A stretch of 64,000 nucleotides of DNA, from contig JADFZQ010000009.1 in the NCBI GenBank assembly GCA_015232455.1, positions 62,001 through 126,000 on the forward strand. Direction: 5' to 3'. Positions 23,164 through 46,163 of the stretch are shown one piece after another. Every line of letters begins with the position of its first letter. Position 1 is the first letter of the stretch. Made by a program: the position numbers and the translations under genes. The notes below the pieces were generated by a model, which saw nothing but the letters and a program-made list of their open reading frames with translations, was not told the DNA's origin and did no database searches. The DNA is from Desulfamplus sp. Lineage in GTDB: Bacteria > Desulfobacterota > Desulfobacteria > Desulfobacterales > Desulfobacteraceae.

Positions 23164-25275
23164 ATGGTCGAACCAAACAGGTTTATCGAAGGATTCCGCC
23201 AAGAGGCTCAAGAACTTTTGGTTGAGATTGAAGCAGCAGTGCTTGACATTGAAGAGAACCCCGAAGAACATGAAGCTGTCAACCGTCTCTTCAGAGCTAT
23301 GCATACTATTAAAGGTTCTGGTGCAATGTTCGGTTTTGATGATATTGCAAAGTTTGCCCATCATGTTGAGACTGCTTTAGATAAAGTGCGTGGAGGGTTA
23401 GTGCCTATAACCCGTGAGTTAATTGATTTAACCCTCTCATCAAGAGATCAAATTAAAATAATGCTCGAAGCCTCAGCAACAGGAGAAGCATTTGATCAGG
23501 AGAAAAACATTGAAATAATCAATGCCTTGAAGATCATCATGGGAGAAGGCACGGAGCTATCATCTGATGATAAATCTTCTCATAAACAGAAAAAGAACCT
23601 ATCTTTCCCAGAACCTGAGATTGATCAACAAATTCCAATGACATACAGAATTCGCCTAAAACCCTCTGCTGATATATTTAAGTCAGGCATGGATCCAGCT
23701 TTGCTCATTGAAGACCTTAAGGCTCTTGGGGAGTGTAAAGTTATTGCTCAAACTGAACTTATCCCTGATTTGGCATTGTATAACCCAGAACTTTGTTATC
23801 TTTTTTGGGACATCACACTTACAACAGCAAAAGATGTTAATGCCATAAAAGATGTCTTTATTTTTGTTGAAGATGATTGCGATATTTCAATTGAGATCAT
23901 TGAAAAACACGATCTCGTTGAATCACTTACTCCTTTACCTCGTCTTGGTGAAATTCTTATTGAACGCGGGGATACCACAAAAGAGATTGTAGATAAGACT
24001 CTTGCAAAGCAAAAACGGATTGGTGAGATTCTTATTGAAAATGGTGCGGTCTCTCCAGAAAAGGTTAAATCAGCCCTTTCCGAACAAGAGGTGCTGGGTA
24101 AACATAAACCATCTGTCTTAGTATCTTCGGTGCGGGTTCCCTCTGACAGGTTAGATAAACTTATCAATCTTGTGGGAGAGCTTGTAATTACGCAGGCAAG
24201 GTTAAGCCAAGTTTCAGCTAAGGTTAATAATATTGAACTCTCAGAGCCTGTTGAAGAGGTAGAACGCCTTACAGGAGAACTTCGAGATAATGTGCTTAAT
24301 ATCAGAATGATGCCAATTGGCACAACGTTCAGTAAATTCAGGCGACTTGTCCGCGATCTTTCTGGTGAACTTGGGAAAAAGATCGATCTTGTAACTTATG
24401 GGGCAGAGACTGAGATGGATAAAACAGTGCTTGAACGTTTAGATGATCCCCTTGTTCATCTAATACGCAACTGCATTGATCACGGTATCCAATCTCCTGA
24501 AGAGAGAAAGAGAGTTGGGAAATCTGAAAGAGGAACAATTACGCTCTCCGCACACCACAGAGGTACAAACGTTGTAATTAAAATCAGTGATGATGGCTCT
24601 GGTCTAAAATCTGAAGTGATAAGGAAAAAGGCAGAAGAAAAGGGACTTATAACAAGTGATCAAGAGTTATCCCGTAAAGAGATGTTTGCTTTGATATTTG
24701 CTCCTGGATTTTCAACAGCCGAATCTATTACCAATGTCTCTGGTCGCGGGGTGGGTATGGATGTTGTTAAAAAAACAATTGAATCTTTAAGAGGCTCAAT
24801 TGAGATCGACAGCATCACTGATCAGGGGACAACCATTACCCTTATTTTGCCACTTACTTTAGCAATCATTCATGGACTTTTAGTTACCATAGGTAATGAT
24901 TTCTTTGTTCTTCCACTTATGACAGTTGAGGAGTGTGTGGAGATGAAGAAAAGTAACTCAGAAAAGAACAGAGGGAGAAATATCTTAAATGTCAGAGGTG
25001 AGATTGTTCCATATATTCGTTTAAGAGATAATTTTAAAATTAACTGCAACCAAAGAGACCTTGAACATGTTGTAATTGCAGATGTAAATGGTAGAAGAAT
25101 AGGTTTTGTTGTGGATAATGTGATTGGAGGACACCAAACTGTTATAAAGTCATTGGGTCCCATTTTCGCCAATGTCCGCGATATATCAGGTGCTACCATA
25201 CTTGGAGACGGAACAGTTGCCCTTATTTTAGATACAAACGTCCTTCTTGAAAAGGCTATGGAACGATTGCCTTAA
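23164..25275 (+). CDS. cheA: Chemotaxis histidine kinase CheA with an inserted repeat domain
   Basis: 703 residues. The HPt domain at the N-terminus has AMHTIKGSGAMFGFDDI with His47 as phosphorylation site. A middle region of about 130-250 is not a clear CheY-binding P2. Residues about 257-318 hold two copies of an (L/I)GEILIE(R/N)G motif, RLGEILIERGDTTKEIVDKT and RIGEILIENGAVSPEKVKSA, like the N-terminal modules of GspE/MshE ATPases. Then P3 dimerisation (SDRLDKLINLVGELVITQAR), P4 kinase (LVHLIRNCIDHGI, GRGVGMDVVKKTI) and a C-terminal CheW-like domain (HGLLVTIGNDFFVLPL). It should phosphorylate CheY and CheB in the same operon. Confidence 0.92.
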   Translation: MVEPNRFIEGFRQEAQELLVEIEAAVLDIEENPEEHEAVNRLFRAMHTIKGSGAMFGFDDIAKFAHHVETALDKVRGGLVPITRELIDLTLSSRDQIKIMLEASATGEAFDQEKNIEIINALKIIMGEGTELSSDDKSSHKQKKNLSFPEPEIDQQIPMTYRIRLKPSADIFKSGMDPALLIEDLKALGECKVIAQTELIPDLALYNPELCYLFWDITLTTAKDVNAIKDVFIFVEDDCDISIEIIEKHDLVESLTPLPRLGEILIERGDTTKEIVDKTLAKQKRIGEILIENGAVSPEKVKSALSEQEVLGKHKPSVLVSSVRVPSDRLDKLINLVGELVITQARLSQVSAKVNNIELSEPVEEVERLTGELRDNVLNIRMMPIGTTFSKFRRLVRDLSGELGKKIDLVTYGAETEMDKTVLERLDDPLVHLIRNCIDHGIQSPEERKRVGKSERGTITLSAHHRGTNVVIKISDDGSGLKSEVIRKKAEEKGLITSDQELSRKEMFALIFAPGFSTAESITNVSGRGVGMDVVKKTIESLRGSIEIDSITDQGTTITLILPLTLAIIHGLLVTIGNDFFVLPLMTVEECVEMKKSNSEKNRGRNILNVRGEIVPYIRLRDNFKINCNQRDLEHVVIADVNGRRIGFVVDNVIGGHQTVIKSLGPIFANVRDISGATILGDGTVALILDTNVLLEKAMERLP

Positions 25276-32603: not shown

Positions 32604-33164
32604 ATGATGGATACACGGGTTTTTATTAAAATAGGAGAATACTATGTAACTCAAGCACCAATATTTATTGGGACAGTATTGGGTTCATGTGTTGGAGTCT
32701 GTCTCTTTGAGAAACAGAAGCGTATTGGCGGATTGAATCATATTCTTTTACCGGGTAACCCTGATTTTGAACATTACAATGACTCTGCCCGCTATGGTAT
32801 CAATGCTATGGAAATTCTTATTAATGGAATTATGAAGATGGGGGGCAAAAAAGAGAATATTATTGCAAAAGCATTTGGTGGAGCATGTGTTACAAGCAGC
32901 TTTTCTTGTGAAAATGGACCTGGACAGAAAAACATTGAATTTGTAAGAAGATTTCTAAAAGACGAAAGGATAAAATTAGTGAGCTACGACTTGGGAGGCT
33001 ATGATATTCGCAAAATTTTTCTAAACTCAAATACTGGAGATGTATTTCTCAAACGCCTTAACTCATCTTTGTCCTCTAAAATCAACCAGATAGAAAAACA
33101 AAATTTAGAAAAGCAGAAGGCAGAGAAAAAACAACAAAAACATGTCATTGAACTTTTTGAATAA
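32604..33164 (+). CDS. cheD: CheD chemoreceptor glutamine deamidase, active-site residues intact
   Basis: 186 residues. FIGTVLGSCVGVCLFEK carries Thr24 and the catalytic Cys29; RIGGLNHILLPG carries His46; AKAFGGACV follows. These are the residues required by CheD for deamidating receptor Gln and for binding CheC where that exists. No cheC is present in the window. A Lys/Gln-rich tail of about 30 residues ends HVIELFE. It is 55 bases after cheB and 18 bases before the aspartoacylase-family gene. A second CheD homologue at 43740 lacks the Cys. Confidence 0.92.
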   Translation: MMDTRVFIKIGEYYVTQAPIFIGTVLGSCVGVCLFEKQKRIGGLNHILLPGNPDFEHYNDSARYGINAMEILINGIMKMGGKKENIIAKAFGGACVTSSFSCENGPGQKNIEFVRRFLKDERIKLVSYDLGGYDIRKIFLNSNTGDVFLKRLNSSLSSKINQIEKQNLEKQKAEKKQQKHVIELFE

Positions 33165-37292: not shown

Positions 37293-37922
37293 TTATTTAT
37301 CTTGTGTTCTCCAAAAATCTCTGCTCTCTTTAAGAATATCCTCAATATCGTCAGAATGACTAAGCTGATTTAAGTCAGCTATAGGATCAAGCTCTTCTTC
37401 AGGTTCATTCAATTCATTTAAGTCAGCAATTGGATCAAGTTCACCCGCATCTTTCTCATCTTCGAGTTGGTCGAGTATATCTCCATCGCCGTCTCCAAGT
37501 ATATCTTCATCTTCAAGAGAAGTAATATCATCAATAATAAGTTCATCATCATCAAGTAGTGGATCATAAGATTTGATTTTAGTATGGTTATCTATCTTAT
37601 TATCTTCTGCATGTGTAGAGTCTATCTTATCTGGGGATATATTATATGGTTCTGGAATATAGTTGCCTTTTCTATCAAACATTATTGACATAGCTGTTTG
37701 CAGTTCAAAATCAACTCTAAATGCAATCTCTCCTTTATGGACAATAATCTCACCACCATTTACATCAAAAGATAAAGAGCTATCTTTATTAAGATCAAAA
37801 GAAGCTGACTTGATTCTTTGTATAAAAATTTCCTTAATAGTATCCCAATCAAGGTCATCTTTAATTGATTCTATCAAATCTCTTTCGCCTGATTTTATGA
37901 CATCTGGCTCTGTAACTTTCAA
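37293..37922 (-). CDS. Acidic protein of unknown function with internal repeat
   Basis: 209 residues starting at TTG 37922 behind AGAGGTG. The first 90 residues look folded (SASFDLNKDSSLSFDVNGGE, IAFRVDFELQTAMSIMFDRK); the remainder is extremely rich in Asp and Glu. Two copies of DPIADLN(E/Q)L appear about 20 residues apart near 160-195, and the protein ends ILKESRDFWRTQDK. No membrane segment or known domain is seen. It lies 57 bases downstream of the receiver-SBP gene and 71 upstream of pckG on the same strand. A docking or scaffold role for an acidic repeat tail is possible but unproven. Confidence 0.6.
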   Translation of the reverse strand: MKVTEPDVIKSGERDLIESIKDDLDWDTIKEIFIQRIKSASFDLNKDSSLSFDVNGGEIIVHKGEIAFRVDFELQTAMSIMFDRKGNYIPEPYNISPDKIDSTHAEDNKIDNHTKIKSYDPLLDDDELIIDDITSLEDEDILGDGDGDILDQLEDEKDAGELDPIADLNELNEPEEELDPIADLNQLSHSDDIEDILKESRDFWRTQDK

Positions 37923-37979: not shown

Positions 37980-39353
37980 TTAACCTTTAAGTACTTTATC
38001 AGCAAAAGATGTATTTACAAATTTTTCAAGATCGATCAATCTGCCAATCTCCATGACATCGTGCATATATTTTTGTATTACATCAAAATCTTCAATAACA
38101 GGATAAAGATCATCCATTTTAATTGCTAAAGGTTGGGAAAATACCTTTTCAAGAACTTTAGTGTTAAGCCCAAGCTGTCCGTCAGGATCAAGAAATTTAA
38201 CAGCAATTTCAGCAGCTCTTACCTTATCTTGCTCAACGTATTGTCCTGTCTCAATGAGTAAGTCAACAAACTCTTGAACAGCATCAGGGTATTTTTCAAT
38301 AAAATCTTTTTGCATAGCAACAATACAGCATGGATGTTTATCCCATCTTGTTGCAGATATAAATTCAAGATTGCCGATCTCTGTTGCAATTGCCTTTGTA
38401 GCAATTGGTTCAGCCACCATAAAACCTGCAACATCTTCATTTTCCTTCATAATGCCCGGCATCTTAATTGGTGGAACAACCTCAAATCTTACATTAATAG
38501 CCTTTTTACCCGGAACACCTGGTTTTAATCCAAGCTCTTTTAGAAATTGGTGTGCCAACATGTGATGAATTGACATTTTGTGCGGAATATCAACAACTTT
38601 GTATTTGTAGAAACTCTGTAGAGAGTCAAAGCGGGGATCATAGTGGCGACTTCTGACAAAGGTGCTGCCGTTTTTGTGGGCAAGAAGCACAAGTTGTATG
38701 GGCGAATCATAAGCAAAAAGGTCCATAGCAATCGGAGCAAGCACAAATGCACAGTCAATTTCACCTGTTTCAAGCCCCTCTTGTATAGGATTCCAACCTG
38801 GCTTACGATCTGTTTTTAGATCAAAGAATCTTGGTATAACCTGTCCAGACTCTATTCTATGTTTTAATGCACCAAGTGCAAGGTGATCTGTAATTTGAAT
38901 ATGGGCAACAGTAAGCTCAACTTTACCATCTACTACATTACGCTTTTTAGGTCCAGATACAGCCACAGCTTCAGGGGCAAACACCTTGTATATTGCATCT
39001 TTTATCTGGTTTGAATCAAATGGTTTTGGCACATGTCCATTACCCTTTGCTTCATAAATAGCGATCTGCTGCCCTTTATCTGCCTGTGCGGTTGCCATTA
39101 TGAATGGGATATTTTGGTAGGGTGGGGTCTTTCTTACCCATTGAAGAAACTCTAAGCCATCCATTCTTGGCATATTCCAGTCACTGATAATCAGATCTGG
39201 TGGTGATTCTTGAACCTTTTTAACACCATCGCTGCCATCTATAGCTACAACAATATTCTCAAACCCTGCTTTATTTAGCATCTGTTTGAACATAATGCGC
39301 ATAGTGCCTGAATCATCTGCTATCAGAATTTTCATTTTTGGATCAACTGCCAT
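37980..39353 (-). CDS. CheY-type receiver fused to a NrtA/TauA-like substrate-binding domain
   Basis: 457 residues starting at ATG 39353 with a good GGAG site. Residues 1-125 are an intact receiver: Asp13/Asp14 (ILIADDSGTMR), phospho-Asp58 (IISDWNMPRMDG), Thr88 (IMATAQ), Lys110 (HVPKPFD). After a short linker, about 138-457 is a periplasmic-binding-protein fold of the nitrate/taurine group: ITDHLALGALKHRIESGQ, GEIDCAFVLAPIAMD, PHKMSIHHMLAHQFLKELG, VAGFMVAEPIATKAI and KHPCCIVAMQKDF. There is no signal peptide, so the binding domain is cytoplasmic. It is the fifth gene of the ABC operon. This architecture implies that ligand binding and phosphorylation influence one another; no such function is known to me. 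Confidence 0.88.
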   Translation of the reverse strand: MAVDPKMKILIADDSGTMRIMFKQMLNKAGFENIVVAIDGSDGVKKVQESPPDLIISDWNMPRMDGLEFLQWVRKTPPYQNIPFIMATAQADKGQQIAIYEAKGNGHVPKPFDSNQIKDAIYKVFAPEAVAVSGPKKRNVVDGKVELTVAHIQITDHLALGALKHRIESGQVIPRFFDLKTDRKPGWNPIQEGLETGEIDCAFVLAPIAMDLFAYDSPIQLVLLAHKNGSTFVRSRHYDPRFDSLQSFYKYKVVDIPHKMSIHHMLAHQFLKELGLKPGVPGKKAINVRFEVVPPIKMPGIMKENEDVAGFMVAEPIATKAIATEIGNLEFISATRWDKHPCCIVAMQKDFIEKYPDAVQEFVDLLIETGQYVEQDKVRAAEIAVKFLDPDGQLGLNTKVLEKVFSQPLAIKMDDLYPVIEDFDVIQKYMHDVMEIGRLIDLEKFVNTSFADKVLKG

Positions 39354-39428: not shown

Positions 39429-40358
39429 TCACTCAATCCACGATTTTGTAAAAGCACTCTGAATTATCTGAAATATTTTATCTAAAGTAAAACCTAAAAT
39501 TCCAATCGCAACAATAATTGCCATAAGGGTGTCGTAAGCCATAGTGTCTCTTGCGTCATTTATCAGATAACCTAATCCACTTGCAACTCCTAAAAATTCT
39601 GCTGGAACAAGCACAATCCAAGCAACTCCTAATGCTAACCTAAGACTTGCCATAATACCCGGAAGAGACGCTGGAATTATAATAGTATAAAATATCTGAA
39701 AGTGGCTGGCTCCCTGATTCATAGCCATCTTTATCCAACTTGGATTCACATTTGCAGCTCCTGATGCTGTATTCAAAATAATGGGCCACACAGTTGCCAT
39801 TACAATAAGAAAATAAATTGCAGATTCAAAATCTGTAAATATAATCAACGCAATAGGCATCCATGCAAGAGGACTTATCATTCTTAGAAATTGAATTGGG
39901 GCGTAGGCAATATTTCTCAAAATTGGATAGTATCCTGTAACAAGACCTAAAGGTATTCCGATAAAAGCAGCAATAAGTATTCCAATAAATACTCTGCTCA
40001 TACTTGCCCATACAGACAAGTAAAATCTCTCTTGAAGCAGAAGTTTATAAAGAGCCTTAAATGTAGGAAAAGGGAGAAAAATATCTCCAGAGGAGATTGA
40101 AGGAACAAGTAAAAAAATCCACCCTGCTACAAACCATAGTAGTAAAAGAATCAATATCCCAAGCAGTTCAAAACGTATATCTGATGCTCTATATCTGAAA
40201 AAAGTGCCAAGACTTATCATCTTCTCTTTTTTTGAGATGCTGTTTATTTCACCATCTGATAATTTATAGCTCTTTTTCTCTTTTTTCTCAGATTTTGATA
40301 TGAGGTGTTTATCAACCAATTTCAATGACCTCTTCGCGAGAGAAAATATTAGGATCAA
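39429..40358 (-). CDS. ABC transporter permease, NrtB/SsuC/TauC type
   Basis: 309 residues from TTG 40358 (another TTG at 40319 is possible and would leave a shorter overlap with the upstream gene). About 50 polar residues precede the first membrane segment (FELLGILILLLLWFVAGWIF). Six membrane segments are visible, with the ATPase-contact loop AMNQGASHFQIFYTIIIP and ASLPGIMASLRLALGVAWI. With the ATPase at 41669 and the binding protein at 40312 it makes an importer for a small anion or organosulfur/nitrogen compound. The overlap with the binding-protein gene supports coupled translation. Confidence 0.9.
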   Translation of the reverse strand: MILIFSLAKRSLKLVDKHLISKSEKKEKKSYKLSDGEINSISKKEKMISLGTFFRYRASDIRFELLGILILLLLWFVAGWIFLLVPSISSGDIFLPFPTFKALYKLLLQERFYLSVWASMSRVFIGILIAAFIGIPLGLVTGYYPILRNIAYAPIQFLRMISPLAWMPIALIIFTDFESAIYFLIVMATVWPIILNTASGAANVNPSWIKMAMNQGASHFQIFYTIIIPASLPGIMASLRLALGVAWIVLVPAEFLGVASGLGYLINDARDTMAYDTLMAIIVAIGILGFTLDKIFQIIQSAFTKSWIE

Positions 40359-41676
40359 CTACATCTTTATTGTTAGAATCAAAAGTTCCGTAAACACTCA
40401 TATTTTTCATAGCTTTTTTAACAAAAGTGTCATCTACAAGCTCTGCTATTGCTAAATTTGGATCAATAGCAATATCTTTTAGAAATTTGGAATCTCCTTC
40501 AACTTTTGTTTTTGCCATCTGGTTAATAATAAACTTAGTTGCTGAAGGGTAAGGATATGGCTGAAAACCAATTCTCCCTATATTCCATTCTGGATGAATT
40601 ATAGGGCGAGGTGGTTCGCCCTCTAAATAATCTTTTAGATCATATTTGGTAAATACCCTCAAAAGCACATCTTCATTTACAGGAAGATAGCCATCTCCTT
40701 TATCTCGGCTTAAAATATTTGCGGCTTTTTCAGGATTTTTTGTGCACCACAGCTGTGCCCTTACAACAGCATTAATGGCTTTTTGAATCATAGCAGGTTG
40801 AGTTTTTATAAAGTTTTCATGGGAGACAACCACACAGCAAGGGTGATTTTTCCAAATATCACCTGTAAACCTCATGATTCTGCCCTTTATTTTCATCTCT
40901 GCAAGAGCGTTAAACGGCTCTGCTACAATAAATCCGTCCATTTTTTTACCAAGAAGTGCTGGAGGCATTTCAGGTGGCGGAAGAACAAAAAGATTTACCT
41001 CATCAGGTGCAATTACAGCACCTTGCGGTTTGATAACAGGCTTTAACCCTTTTGCCATTATTCCCATTTGAACCATGTAGTTGTGGGTAGAATACCATGA
41101 TGGAACAGCAATCTGTCTGCCTCCTAAATCGCCAAAACCTCTTATGTTTGAATCCCCACGAACAGTCAAAGCACTGCCATTTGTATGATCCCACGCAAGC
41201 ACTTTAACTGGAATTTTTTGCTTAAATCTCATCCAGATAGGTATTGGAAACATTAAATGGGTAAAGTTAAACTGACCTCCAATAAATGATTCTGATAACA
41301 CTGTCCACGATCTAACCATTACTGGCTTTGGAACAATTAGCCCCTCTTCTTTAAAAAAACCAAGACTATATGCAATTAAAAGTGGGGTTGCATCTGTTAT
41401 TGGAATATATCCAATTTTAAGCTCTTGCTCATTGTTGTTACTGGCATAAGCAGAAGAGGTGGTAAATGAAGTTGAAAATAAGCTATTTGATATTAGAGAA
41501 GAGCCAAAAGCTGCTCCAGCTCCAATGGTTATTGAAGCACTCTTTTTAAGGAATGATCTTCTGTCAAATAGATCAATAGTATTAATATCGTCATTAATTC
41601 TATTAAGAGCATCATCTCTATTGCTATTTTCATCAACACCATTAAAATCATTTTTCTCTTTTATATAATCACTCAT
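40312..41676 (-). CDS. Tat-exported ABC substrate-binding protein, NrtA/CmpA-like
   Basis: About 454 residues from ATG 41676, which has AGGAGA upstream; an in-frame ATG at 41694 lacks a site. After an unusually long polar leader of about 35 residues comes a twin-arginine signal, DRRSFLKKSASITIGAG. The mature part resembles nitrate/bicarbonate-type binding proteins (LKIGYIPITDATPLLIAYSL, GGRQIAVPSWYSTHNYMVQM, FIVAEPFNALAEMKIKGR, KNHPCCVVVSHENF). It would deliver substrate to the permease. The HPCC motif is shared with the receiver-fused module at 37980, so both may bind the same ligand. Ligand not determined. Confidence 0.9.
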   Translation of the reverse strand: MSDYIKEKNDFNGVDENSNRDDALNRINDDINTIDLFDRRSFLKKSASITIGAGAAFGSSLISNSLFSTSFTTSSAYASNNNEQELKIGYIPITDATPLLIAYSLGFFKEEGLIVPKPVMVRSWTVLSESFIGGQFNFTHLMFPIPIWMRFKQKIPVKVLAWDHTNGSALTVRGDSNIRGFGDLGGRQIAVPSWYSTHNYMVQMGIMAKGLKPVIKPQGAVIAPDEVNLFVLPPPEMPPALLGKKMDGFIVAEPFNALAEMKIKGRIMRFTGDIWKNHPCCVVVSHENFIKTQPAMIQKAINAVVRAQLWCTKNPEKAANILSRDKGDGYLPVNEDVLLRVFTKYDLKDYLEGEPPRPIIHPEWNIGRIGFQPYPYPSATKFIINQMAKTKVEGDSKFLKDIAIDPNLAIAELVDDTFVKKAMKNMSVYGTFDSNNKDVVDPNIFSREEVIEIG

Positions 41677-42502
41677 CAAATGCAATCTCCTCATTCATTT
41701 GGTTCATGGAAAAAAACTTTCTGCTGCCTACGTGTGCTTGCTTTAAATTTGCGAGTATTTCTGCACGATACTCCTTAAATGAAGGAAGATTTATATCTCG
41801 AGGATATGGATCATCAATATCATAAATTCCACTTACACAACCAGGATAACCACCAATCAGGATAATTTTATTACCAAGAAGTATTGCTTCGTTAATGTCA
41901 TGAGTTACGAAAACTGCTGTAAACTTTTCGCTTAACCAAATGTTTACAAGCTCTTCTTGTATATGGGCTTGAGTAAAAGTATCTAATGAGGCAAAAGGTT
42001 CATCAAGAAGAAGCATCTCAGCACGACCAACTAATGCTCTTGCAAGACAGACTCTTTGAGCCATTCCAAGCGAAAGAGAAACAGGTTTTGCATTTTCAAA
42101 TCCTGAAAGCCCCATCATTTCAATAAATTGATAGACTCTATAGTCAAGATTTTCAATATCTCCCCTTAGTTTACACCCATAAGCAACATTATCTTTTACA
42201 GTAAGCCAAGGGATCAATACTGGTTGTTGAAATAGCATAGAGCGAGATGGTTCAATTCCATTTACTTTATTTCCATCTACAAAAACCTCTCCTGATGTTG
42301 GTTTTTCAAGCCCTGCTAAAAGGTTTAACAAAGTCGTCTTTCCGCCACCAGATTCTCCAAGTATAACGACAAAATCACCGCTATTTACGGAAAAGGATAT
42401 ATTGTCTAATACAATATTTTCTCCGCCATCAAAACGAGGAAAAATTTTGGATACATTGCAAACGTCTATTTTCAATTTATTATGCCCCAGCCTCAAGTGC
42501 AA
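41669..42502 (-). CDS. ABC transporter ATP-binding protein, NrtD/SsuB/TauB type
   Basis: 277 residues. Walker A GESGGGKTTLLNLL, Q-loop FQQPVLIPWL, signature LSLGMAQRVCLARALV and Walker B MLLLDEPFASLD are present; the C-terminal part includes FVTHDINEAILLG. The listed start is TTG 42502, inside the end of the upstream gene; TTG 42475, just after that gene's stop and with GGGG upstream, is equally good. It overlaps the next gene by 8 bases at ATGAGTGA. It energises uptake through the 39429 permease. Confidence 0.93.
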   Translation of the reverse strand: MHLRLGHNKLKIDVCNVSKIFPRFDGGENIVLDNISFSVNSGDFVVILGESGGGKTTLLNLLAGLEKPTSGEVFVDGNKVNGIEPSRSMLFQQPVLIPWLTVKDNVAYGCKLRGDIENLDYRVYQFIEMMGLSGFENAKPVSLSLGMAQRVCLARALVGRAEMLLLDEPFASLDTFTQAHIQEELVNIWLSEKFTAVFVTHDINEAILLGNKIILIGGYPGCVSGIYDIDDPYPRDINLPSFKEYRAEILANLKQAHVGSRKFFSMNQMNEEIAFDE

Positions 42503-43427
42503 AACTTCTATCTACAAAATTATCCATATATATTATGTTTTTCATTATTCCCATATCATTAACCATGAAGCGATTAATAACTTCAAGTGATTTAATATCT
42601 GGCATAAGTGAGTTCGGTGTGTTTGGCAAAAAAGATGAGAACATAAACTCAAGAATCTCTCTATCTTGAAAACGTCTAAACTTATCAAAAAACTCTCTTG
42701 AAAGTCGATACAAATCAGTCGAACCTTTATATATAAAATGGCTTGAAGCTACCATAAGATGAATTATATCCATAAGATGTCTGCGATAATCCTTAATAAC
42801 ATAATCGTGTATAACTAAAACTGAGTTTGGGTGAGATGTCCAAATACGAGACGAAGGTAATATCACTTTACCCCAGTTATTTTTAATAACCATAGAACCA
42901 AAAGGTTCTTCTATAAAAACACCACCGATTTCGTTTGATTCATCATTATTTAACATTTCAGGAACGATAAACGGTGGAACAATTTCGATATATACATCTG
43001 GATCACTATCATTTTCAAGCCCTGCTTTCAATCTTGCTGAAGCCATTAGTCGATAAAAAAGAAGATTATGGACAGAAAGATAGTTAGATATAAGAACAGT
43101 TTTCCCTTTAAAATCTGTAAGTTTATTTATGTTTGCAGCTCTATTACCAATTATATATGCTCCGGGGCGGGAATCAAAAAGCACCAATTTCATCTCCATT
43201 CCAGAGTCAAAAAGAGCCATAGCTTCAGGAAGAGGAAGGAATGCTCCATGAAGATCACCATTGCAAAAGGCTTGTTTTATCTGACTCCAACTGCCAAAAG
43301 AGACTGCTGTCATAAGGTGATCAGTGTGTTTAAGAAGAGCTGCTCCAGAACCATCATAAGCAAATCCAAGCATCAGATGTTCAAGAATCCTTAAATGTCC
43401 TATCCTGATAAATGGGAGTCTATTCAA
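42480..43427 (-). CDS. Cytoplasmic substrate-binding-fold protein, paralogue of the ABC binding proteins
   Basis: 315 residues starting at TTG 43427, with AAGG 8 bases upstream and an in-frame stop two codons before it. The sequence begins directly in the fold (FIRIGHLRILEHLMLGFAYD) with no signal peptide or membrane segment. AFLPLPEAMALFDSG, FKGKTVLISNYLSVHNLLFY, GGVFIEEPFGSMVI and SHPNSVLVIHDYV align in order with the binding module of the receiver fusion, and both end with a similar (F/Y)V(D/N)xSFA stretch. It lacks the HPCC motif (SHPNS). It is the first gene of the ABC operon and may sense ligand inside the cell. A missed signal upstream is excluded by the stop codon. Confidence 0.8.
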   Translation of the reverse strand: MNRLPFIRIGHLRILEHLMLGFAYDGSGAALLKHTDHLMTAVSFGSWSQIKQAFCNGDLHGAFLPLPEAMALFDSGMEMKLVLFDSRPGAYIIGNRAANINKLTDFKGKTVLISNYLSVHNLLFYRLMASARLKAGLENDSDPDVYIEIVPPFIVPEMLNNDESNEIGGVFIEEPFGSMVIKNNWGKVILPSSRIWTSHPNSVLVIHDYVIKDYRRHLMDIIHLMVASSHFIYKGSTDLYRLSREFFDKFRRFQDREILEFMFSSFLPNTPNSLMPDIKSLEVINRFMVNDMGIMKNIIYMDNFVDRSFALEAGA

Positions 43428-43739: not shown

Positions 43740-44252
43740 ATGAGCAACCAAGATAACATTCCAACCAGATTAGATTACCTCCTAAAGCCTGGGTTTATCT
43801 ATCTGTCAGATAAGCCAATATCAATATCAACTGTAGTAGGCTCGTCTGTAGCCGTATGCCTATTTGATAAAAAGCAAAAAATAGGCGGAATGAACCATTT
43901 CCAGCTTCCAGAGATCAAAGATAGAGAAAAAGCAACGGCAATATATGGTAATGTTGCAAATTTAGCTTTAATAAAGATGATGTTATCAAATGGTTCAAAA
44001 GTCGGACACATTGAAGCACAAATATTTGGAGGTGCTTATAATCCAGAGGTATCTAACATAAACATAGGAATAAATAACATTAGGGCAGCACGCAAAATCT
44101 TAAATAGCAAAAGGATAAAAATTATATCAGAAGATGTTGGTGGTGAAGTTGGAAGAAAGATTATCTTCAACACGTCAACTTGTGAGATTGCCGTGTTGAA
44201 GGTTAAGACTTTAAGAGAATCTGACTGGTATCCTTATGAGAATAATCGGTAA
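43740..44252 (+). CDS. CheD homologue with catalytic Cys replaced by Ser
   Basis: 170 residues. ISTVVGSSVAVCLFDKK aligns with the active CheD at 32604 (IGTVLGSCVGVCLFEK): Thr31 is kept, Cys is Ser36. His53 is kept in IGGMNHFQLPE, and AQIFGGAYNPE follows. Without the Cys the deamidase/amidase reaction should not work, but binding of receptor-like or CheC-like partners could remain. The gene is divergent from the ABC operon that contains the receiver-SBP fusion and stands alone on its strand. The spacing from AAGGAA to ATG 43740 is long, so translation may be weak or the start imperfectly assigned. Confidence 0.85.
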   Translation: MSNQDNIPTRLDYLLKPGFIYLSDKPISISTVVGSSVAVCLFDKKQKIGGMNHFQLPEIKDREKATAIYGNVANLALIKMMLSNGSKVGHIEAQIFGGAYNPEVSNINIGINNIRAARKILNSKRIKIISEDVGGEVGRKIIFNTSTCEIAVLKVKTLRESDWYPYENNR

Positions 44253-44315: not shown

Positions 44316-46163
44316 CTATTTTGACCCAAATGAGGCTTCGGGCATCTCTTCAACCGATTTGTCGCCCTCTATAATAGCGTCCATCTTGCCAAGTGCTGAT
44401 GGTAAAATGGTATTGATAAAAAATTCTGCTGTCATAATCTGTCCAGCATAGTAAGCAACATCTTTATTTTTCTCAGCCTGCTCTTTAATAGCGTTGCGAG
44501 CAATAGACCCTGCCTTTTGCTCAAGTTTTGGAGCTGAAACAGTTGCTCTCCATAAAAGCATCCAAGCCATAGTAATATCGCCTGTAACTTCAAGAAATGG
44601 GTGAGCAAAAGAGTAGGCATTTACCATATCTTCTGACCGTGAACGATCTCCTATAACTTTTGCGGTTGATAAGAGCTTATCAAATGCTTTTTCAAATTTT
44701 GCTGTTATCCCTTCGATTCTTTTAACTGTTTTTGCATCTTTGATAGTGTTTTGGATAAGTTCAATAAAATAACCAAAAGATTTGCCCTTTTTCATACTAA
44801 GTTTACGACCAAGAAGATCCATTGCCTGAATGCCGTTTGTCCCTTCATAGATCATAAAAATTCTTGAATCTCTCATAAGCTGTTCAACTGGAAACTCTTT
44901 AATATATCCATAGCCACCATAAACCTGAACTCCATGGCTGCAAACCTCAAGAGCTTTGTCTGTAACATATCCTTTAACAAGAGGAGTTAAAACTTCAATT
45001 AAATCGCTATATTTCTCTTTTTCTTCTGCATTTGAAGCTGTTGCTTTTAAATCTGCACACTTACCATTTAGATAAAGCAAACTTCTCATACCCTCAACCC
45101 ATGCCTTCATATTTAAAAGCTGGCGTCTAACATCTGGGTGCTGAATTATAGGAACACTCTTTGCGTTTGGGTCTTTTCCAGCCGAAATATTGCGTCCTTG
45201 AACTCTTGTTCTTGCATATTCTAAAGCATACATATAAGAAGCTGTGGCAACACCAAATGCTTGAAGTCCAACAAATGCACGAGCTTCATTCATCATCTGA
45301 AACATCTCAGGCATACCTTTATTGACTTCACCAAGAAGGGTTCCAATGCTTGGACCTTTTTCTCCAAGTGAGAGCGTGCAGGTAGCATTTCCGTGAATGC
45401 CCATCTTCTCTTCAATTCCAGTGCATACAACATTGTTAAAAGCACCAAGTGAGCCGTCAGGATTTACATGGTATTTTGGCACAAGAAATAGAGAGATACC
45501 CTTTGTGCCAGCAGGAGACCCTTCAATACGGGCAAGTACGGGGTGGATTATGTTTTTGCAAAGATCATGCTCGCCAGCAGAGATAAATATTTTTGTTCCA
45601 GTAATTGAGTATGTTCCATCTTCGTTTAGCTTCGCACTTGTAGTTAAAGCACCAACATCAGAGCCAGCTTCAGGTTCTGTTAAAAGCATTGTTCCGCCCC
45701 ATTCACCTGAAAACATTTTTTTCATATAAAGGGCTTTTTGCTCTTTTGTGCCAAACTCTTCAACAAGTTTTGCAGCTCCATGAGTCATGCCGCTGTAGAG
45801 CATAAATGAAGGATTTGCACCAACAAGATATTCGCTTGCAGCAAGCCCTACAAGTTTTGGCATTCCTTGACCACCAGATTCAGGAGAATCAGTCATGGCA
45901 AGCCATTCGCCTTCTTTGTAAAGCTCCCACGCACGTTTAAAACATTCAGGCACTTTTACTACACCATTTTCAAGAACACACCCCTCTTCATCACCTGGTT
46001 TTTGCGTGGGTAAAATCTCCTTAATTGCTAAATTCCTTGCCTCTGATACAATCAGGTCAACGGTCTTTTTATTAAATTCCGCGAATAGTTCATGCTCAAC
46101 TAATCCAAGCTGTTCGTAAAGTACAAAATCCACATCTCTTCTGTCTGAAATTAACTGTGCCAT
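44316..46163 (-). CDS. Long-form acyl-CoA dehydrogenase (DmdC-like, about 600 residues)
   Basis: 615 residues, longer than the usual 380-400 because of a C-terminal helical extension seen in DmdC and related enzymes. FAD/substrate motifs: MLLTEPEAGSDVGALTT, ITGTKIFISAGEHD, RVQGRNISAGKDPN, and VQVYGGYGYIKEFPVEQLMRD with the region IFMIYEGTNGIQAMDLLGR. It oxidises an acyl-CoA to the 2-enoyl-CoA with ETF as acceptor; the etfBA genes at 11979 are a candidate partner. The DmdC name refers to 3-methylmercaptopropionyl-CoA, but family members act on other acyl-CoAs, so substrate is open. It is monocistronic here. Confidence 0.9.
   Translation of the reverse strand: MAQLISDRRDVDFVLYEQLGLVEHELFAEFNKKTVDLIVSEARNLAIKEILPTQKPGDEEGCVLENGVVKVPECFKRAWELYKEGEWLAMTDSPESGGQGMPKLVGLAASEYLVGANPSFMLYSGMTHGAAKLVEEFGTKEQKALYMKKMFSGEWGGTMLLTEPEAGSDVGALTTSAKLNEDGTYSITGTKIFISAGEHDLCKNIIHPVLARIEGSPAGTKGISLFLVPKYHVNPDGSLGAFNNVVCTGIEEKMGIHGNATCTLSLGEKGPSIGTLLGEVNKGMPEMFQMMNEARAFVGLQAFGVATASYMYALEYARTRVQGRNISAGKDPNAKSVPIIQHPDVRRQLLNMKAWVEGMRSLLYLNGKCADLKATASNAEEKEKYSDLIEVLTPLVKGYVTDKALEVCSHGVQVYGGYGYIKEFPVEQLMRDSRIFMIYEGTNGIQAMDLLGRKLSMKKGKSFGYFIELIQNTIKDAKTVKRIEGITAKFEKAFDKLLSTAKVIGDRSRSEDMVNAYSFAHPFLEVTGDITMAWMLLWRATVSAPKLEQKAGSIARNAIKEQAEKNKDVAYYAGQIMTAEFFINTILPSALGKMDAIIEGDKSVEEMPEASFGSK

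Follow-up and report, generated by a model that had tools for sequence, protein, structure and literature searches.

Genes at the locus

Within the window, the 64,000-nucleotide stretch of Desulfamplus sp. DNA analyzed here, a minus-strand gene (39353→37980) encodes a protein of 457 amino acids from an ATG start codon, with AAGGAG upstream as a ribosome-binding site. The preliminary description had recognized a real open reading frame here but omitted its strand. The protein (37980..39353, minus) is composed of a CheY-like receiver (REC), a linker, and a cytosolic substrate-binding domain (SBP) of the NMT1_2/NrtA type, with an HPCC motif at residues 340-343, and is referred to below as REC-SBP. 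Pfam, fold comparison, and residue conservation place the receiver at residues 9-125 (38979..39329, minus), and Pfam and fold comparison place the SBP half at residues about 142-451 (38001..38930, minus). Response_reg (PF00072) matched residues 9-121 (8.7e-26; 90.7 bits against a cut-off of 30.2), and the acidic pair, phospho-Asp, Thr, and Lys of a receiver were all present, in agreement with the full catalytic set described earlier (D13, D14, D58, T88, and K110). NMT1_2 (PF13379) matched residues 146-383 (3.6e-26; 92.9 bits against a cut-off of 24.7), a membership with which the type-II SBP fold agrees. As had also been described, no signal peptide was found in REC-SBP, nor any transmembrane-like segment: the chain begins with the receiver and its maximum 19-residue hydropathy is 1.35. 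The best NCBIfam match was the full-length CheY equivalog NF007901; identity as a single-domain CheY was rejected because the score (95.9 bits) was below the cut-off (189) and the chain runs on into the SBP half. Pfam detected no CheW domain in the window's REC-SBP.

An AlphaFold model of REC-SBP, built on 58 family members, had a mean pLDDT of 92 and a pTM of 0.87. Among solved structures, 3UN6 came nearest to the SBP half (Z 36.9, 2.1 Å over 288 residues by VIA-align), ahead of NrtA (Z 35.5), CmpA (Z 34.9), and, at Z 33-34, the cytosolic regulatory domains of CmpC and NrtC. The REC half compared with E. coli CheY at a Z of about 23 and 37-38% identity. The C-terminal NrtA/TauA-type binding fold that had been proposed from the sequence was thus obtained by structure prediction, which disposes of a missing fold as an objection.

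The operon opens at 43427 with the gene for a second cytosolic SBP; next on the way down come those for an ATPase, an exported SBP, a permease, and REC-SBP, and the last encodes an uncharacterized protein. The fast-evolving first gene (42480..43427, minus) has no signal peptide and HPNS for HPCC; among its orthologs the Cys pair of HPCC and H263 are often lost, and the protein may act as a decoy or sense a different ligand. The ABC transporter ATPase (41669..42502, minus) and permease (BPD_transp_1; 39429..40358, minus) had best NCBIfam matches of SaoA, NtrCD, and TauB type and of SaoP and NtrB type, respectively, all below cut-off. A selenocysteine-assisted Sao transporter (SaoX/SaoA/SaoP; selenium/organometal) was rejected, since equivalog scores fell far below their cut-offs for the SBP (50.4 against 300), the ATPase (194.8 against 360), and the permease (147 against 295). 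The exported SBP (40312..41694, minus) carries a twin-arginine-like signal (DRRSFLKK) and the pocket residues HPCC, H226, and H263 as in REC-SBP. No Pfam match to an ANTAR domain was found among the operon genes examined.

The uncharacterized partner (37293..37922, minus) consists of a small N-terminal domain, a long acidic disordered tether, and a conserved C-terminal helix (DDIxDILKESRxFW). It lies directly downstream of REC-SBP in Desulfobacteraceae, and the DILKESRxFW motif is doubled at two loci (L087 and L097). This make-up resembles a docking peptide on a tether. The C-terminal peptide was not supported as a motif for docking across the genome: the pattern had 5 matches, only one of them in such a protein, against 4 in a reversed control.

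Divergent from the operon lies a CheD paralog (43740..44252, plus) with GSSV for GSCV, in which Ser replaces the catalytic Cys. Its operon-linked orthologs shown here likewise carry GSSV or GSGV, without the catalytic Cys; the CheD at 32604-33164 in the window retains GSCV. Upstream of the operon, in the window as in many Desulfobacteraceae loci, is a gene for an acyl-CoA dehydrogenase-like protein of about 615 amino acids (44316-46163, minus). The window also contains a che cluster whose CheA (23164..25275, plus), with H-kinase_dim and CheW matches inside, is a candidate kinase. Across Desulfobacteraceae-type loci (L044-L086), importer genes were directly upstream of REC-SBP in 40 of 43; of the other three, one (L046) is cut off by the end of its contig and two (L053 and L086) have a chemotaxis context.

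Conservation and architectures of the family

Could the fusion be an assembly or frameshift artefact joining cheY to an SBP gene? The window's genome is split over several contigs and was probably assembled from a metagenome; no support for such an artefact was found. An uninterrupted REC-SBP frame is common to all 118 non-identical units in our conservation set, from dozens of independent genomes, and is intact in complete and isolate genomes of several phyla. The receiver always directly precedes the SBP, separated by a linker of 9-45 residues (13-21 in 116 of 118 units). D14, D58, T88, and K110 are identical in 118/118 receivers, and the D13 position is D or E. Where estimable, dN/dS was 0.01-0.11 in both halves, values that point to strong purifying selection on each. 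In the tree, every REC-bearing SBP fell into a single clade against the REC-less SBPs sampled, an outgroup of near relatives only (SH-aLRT 100), as expected from a single fusion with later domain additions. An artefact is therefore exceedingly improbable, and the sequencing error that had been raised as a potential refutation is set aside by the open ortholog frames and low dN/dS.

A contig scan matched 226 relatives, of which 80 were retained; these were mainly from Desulfobacterota, with others from Spirochaetota, Ignavibacteriota, Latescibacterota, KSB1, and Gammaproteobacteria (e.g., Rhabdochromatium). In the order, 65/291 genomes matched the SBP profile, and 58 of these reached REC-SBP strength; in the phylum, 17/297 genomes matched. 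A plasmid search returned no full-length relative. The window's genome, marked as Desulfamplus by relatives that are almost identical to it, additionally encodes a stand-alone cytosolic SBP and a REC-SBP-CheW paralog (L002; 670 amino acids), 44% identical across the whole of REC-SBP.

The preliminary description had called for a search of domain architectures, and REC-SBP proved to recur across phyla in several of them. Besides REC-SBP and REC-SBP-CheW, we observed a tandem REC-SBP-REC-SBP-CheW (L154 and L163) and REC-SBP joined to a CheA core of dimerization, kinase, and CheW domains (L156:1975-5058 and L162:1-3213). No Hpt domain was detected in these two CheA-core fusions, a result to be read with the low reported sensitivity of Hpt domain models (PMC10782961); they appear to be CheA proteins with a built-in sensor for which an Hpt in trans would be needed. 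Four further fusions (L159, L160, L161, and L170) joined REC-SBP to an anti-sigma-kinase-like HATPase_c_2 domain and STAS (REC-SBP-RsbW-STAS), which suggests that the sensor may also drive a partner-switching pathway. Another (L157:521-3703) was a hybrid histidine kinase ending in REC-SBP (REC-DUF3369-HisKA-HATPase_c-REC-SBP).

Pocket residues and candidate ligand

Pocket positions D156, W187, H226, G229, S230, H263, W337, and HPCC (340-343) were conserved at 97-100% in REC-SBPs and the exported SBPs of their operons, and H226, S230, H263, H340, C342, and C343 were common to 119 REC-SBP units and 37 exported SBPs. The HPCC motif, whose presence in the operon's exported binding protein had been pointed out earlier, occurs in 99% of REC-SBPs and 97% of exported operon SBPs. 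On the basis of these common residues, the exported and the receiver-coupled SBP probably recognize one compound class. In the alignment, the regulatory domain of CmpC has HPGK here, with its Lys at the position of the second Cys of HPCC, and the equivalent Lys of NrtA holds the anion. Because this position is Cys in the family, nitrate or bicarbonate is an unlikely ligand of REC-SBP. Where the family has HPCC, the S. aureus NMT1-type SBP 3UN6 also has a Cys-Cys pair, and the title of its entry mentions bound zinc; a soft metal or a thiol-type compound would be our guess at the ligand.

Association with chemotaxis

A complete che operon in one relative (G024, L189) ends in REC-SBP (cheW-mcp-cheA-(short gene)-cheD-HDOD-cheY-cheX(?)-cheB-cheR-pseudoCheD-RECSBP). 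REC-SBP is also terminal in a Pfam-checked operon of a Desulfobacula sp. (L187; cheW-cheA-cheD-HDOD-cheX-cheB-pseudoCheD-RECSBP); there, the stand-alone cytosolic SBP comes after a convergent cheA-cheY-cheR. The CheD paralog lacking the catalytic Cys thus accompanies REC-SBP into the che operons of relatives. In Desulfobacter latus (L188) REC-SBP is flanked by two cheA genes, and two other loci (L112 and L115) have the order cheA-cheR-RECSBP-CheW. In the order sample, every one of the 58 genomes with REC-SBP encoded CheA, compared with 206/291 overall (hypergeometric p = 1.2e-10, uncorrected for relatedness), and in 27/27 REC-SBP genomes from other orders or phyla, for a total of 85/85.

Fusions, che operons, and constant CheA thus mark the family as a CheA-linked chemosensory component; for the window copy itself, evidence of this kind is confined to che proximity and the divergent CheD paralog. 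The preliminary description had suggested that REC-SBP is possibly fed by the CheA at 23164. That pairing was not supported: the window's genome contains at least 7 loci with the CheA-type H-kinase_dim, and the same-genus genome G001, which has the same block of genes, shows no che cluster in the roughly 14 kb that lie past it, so a function tied to this particular CheA was rejected for want of conserved adjacency. Its broader idea, a one-protein integrator of ligand level and phosphorylation, fared better, in that a single chain does combine a phosphorylatable receiver with a cytosolic ligand-binding fold, and the general link to CheA is upheld by co-occurrence, by CheW and CheA fusions, and by che-operon membership.

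Proposed function and alternatives

We consider it fairly probable that REC-SBP is a soluble intracellular chemosensory input, in which an imported ligand is sensed, the receiver is phosphorylated by CheA, and the output passes to the array. The SBP half would bind in the cytoplasm the class of compound taken up from outside by the operon's ABC importer, and its ligand-driven opening and closing would be passed through the short linker to the CheY-type receiver. The receiver would be phosphorylated by a CheA, and a CheA/CheW array would read the combined state of ligand and phosphate. This reading would be direct in CheW- or CheA-fused forms, such as the CheW-fused paralog in the window's genome; since the window's stand-alone REC-SBP has no CheW, it could couple to the array only in trans. 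The receiver may also have a part in adaptation or feedback, like that of CheV. The proposal builds on observations made here, namely, both folds, the invariant phosphorylation residues, the lack of an export signal, and the pocket signature shared with the exported SBP, as well as the CheW and CheA fusions, the che-operon membership, and the universal co-occurrence of CheA. From these we infer the imported compound as ligand, phosphorylation by CheA, conformational coupling, and the direction of the signal. Given its recurrent fusion to, and co-encoding with, chemotaxis proteins, REC-SBP probably senses an imported compound inside the cell and signals it to the swimming machinery. A narrower version, which we regard as plausible yet short of probable, makes REC-SBP a widespread chemoreceptor-like module that feeds CheA directly. 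Its HPCC/His pocket would sense a ligand brought in from outside, possibly of soft-metal or thiol type, the CheA-phosphorylated receiver would serve as feedback, and the chemotactic response would track the intracellular level of what the importer supplies.

Against the chemosensory reading, the importer neighborhood in 40/43 Desulfobacteraceae loci fits transporter control equally well. In the main rival reading, REC-SBP would act in trans on the ABC importer of its own operon, as a regulator gated by phosphorylation: its SBP half would sense the imported compound and block or release the ATPase, and its receiver would provide kinase input. Besides the conserved operon, this idea draws on the cytosolic NrtC/CmpC regulatory domains among the nearest solved relatives of the SBP half, on the report that the CmpC domain blocks the nucleotide-binding domains until ligand binding (PMC13249358), and on two loci (L042 and L043) in which a REC-SBP-CheW adjoins an ABC ATPase. 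However, those two are the only cases observed beyond Desulfobacteraceae of an importer operon near REC-SBP, and where REC-SBP is terminal in che operons, importer genes are lacking. The fusion partners in the set examined were CheW, CheA, and RsbW-STAS, never an ABC subunit, and we judge regulation of the importer to be unlikely.

The RsbW-STAS fusions also count against the chemosensory reading, as they show that the module is not confined to chemotaxis. They point toward non-chemotactic outputs and, along with a CheY-like receiver without an output domain, are consistent with a phosphate sink or with a single-chain counterpart of NasS-NasT. The SBP half would then hold the receiver captive until ligand binding, and the freed receiver would work on another target with no array coupling, either acting on gene expression or competing with CheY for CheA phosphate. 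A model for this exists in NasS, a cytosolic NrtA homologue that binds NasT and releases it upon nitrate binding (PMC5424462). Nevertheless, REC-SBP has no ANTAR or DNA-binding domain, the recurrent CheW and CheA fusions favor array coupling, and a sink would have no need of an invariant ligand pocket; these alternatives seem to us decidedly improbable.

Chemoreceptors are usually pictured as methyl-accepting proteins. If the chemosensory reading of REC-SBP is true, an intracellular SBP fold with a receiver on CheW/CheA would constitute a separate route from metabolic state to the arrays, nutrient import and swimming would be tied together inside a single operon, and REC-SBP would represent a ready-made allosteric switch for ligand and phosphate. 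The family provides testable signal-input candidates for sulfate reducers and for magnetotactic Desulfamplus.

Comparison with known systems

CheV resembles the REC-SBP-CheW paralogs as a soluble chemotaxis adaptor with CheW and receiver domains. Its domain order is CheW-REC, and it is not known to have a ligand-binding domain. It differs from the window's REC-SBP, which has no CheW; among its kin, CheW is found in the paralog L002 and in many relatives. E. coli CheY differs in being a single domain, and the position of its Tyr106 is occupied by His, Phe, or an aliphatic residue in nearly all REC-SBPs (Tyr in 3/118). The annotation of 3UN6 makes it an ABC importer's ligand-binding component, and it has no receiver.

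The premise of the preliminary description that binding proteins work outside the membrane needs qualification, since cytosolic SBP-like sensors are known in NasS (PMC5424462) and NrtC/CmpC (PMC6603209, PMC13249358). NasS, a cytosolic nitrate sensor partnered by NasT, is like REC-SBP an NrtA-type SBP without a signal peptide that serves as an intracellular ligand sensor with a regulator partner. NasS and NasT are, however, two separate chains that act through an ANTAR antiterminator, with no CheY-type receiver attached and no tie to chemotaxis; REC-SBP shares the missing export signal but is not a stand-alone SBP with an ANTAR partner. The C-terminal domains of NrtC and CmpC, which sense the imported or a related solute, are cytosolic and NrtA/CmpA-like, as is the SBP half, but they are fused to an ABC ATPase and lack a receiver, and CmpC has HPGK where the family has HPCC. 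The ATPase of the window's operon is a separate gene.

The CheW-fused forms are most readily compared with CheWS, a Treponema CheW-CheRlike protein that senses intracellular SAM and is anchored in chemotaxis arrays via CheW (PMC10653840). Both join a cytosolic small-molecule sensor to CheW, and CheWS thereby offers a precedent for anchoring such a sensor domain to arrays; its sensor is a CheR-like SAM-binding domain, with neither receiver nor SBP. The 30 undescribed CheW architectures in Fig. S10 of that study may include REC-NMT1_2-CheW. No description of an SBP/NMT1 domain combined with a receiver and CheW or CheA was found in the open-access literature searched, and the family is apparently undescribed. 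Cytosolic SBP sensors (NasS and NrtC/CmpC) and CheW-fused cytosolic sensors (CheWS) are thus kinds already known; what appears to be new is the covalent REC-SBP unit with its recurrent CheW, CheA, and STAS fusions.
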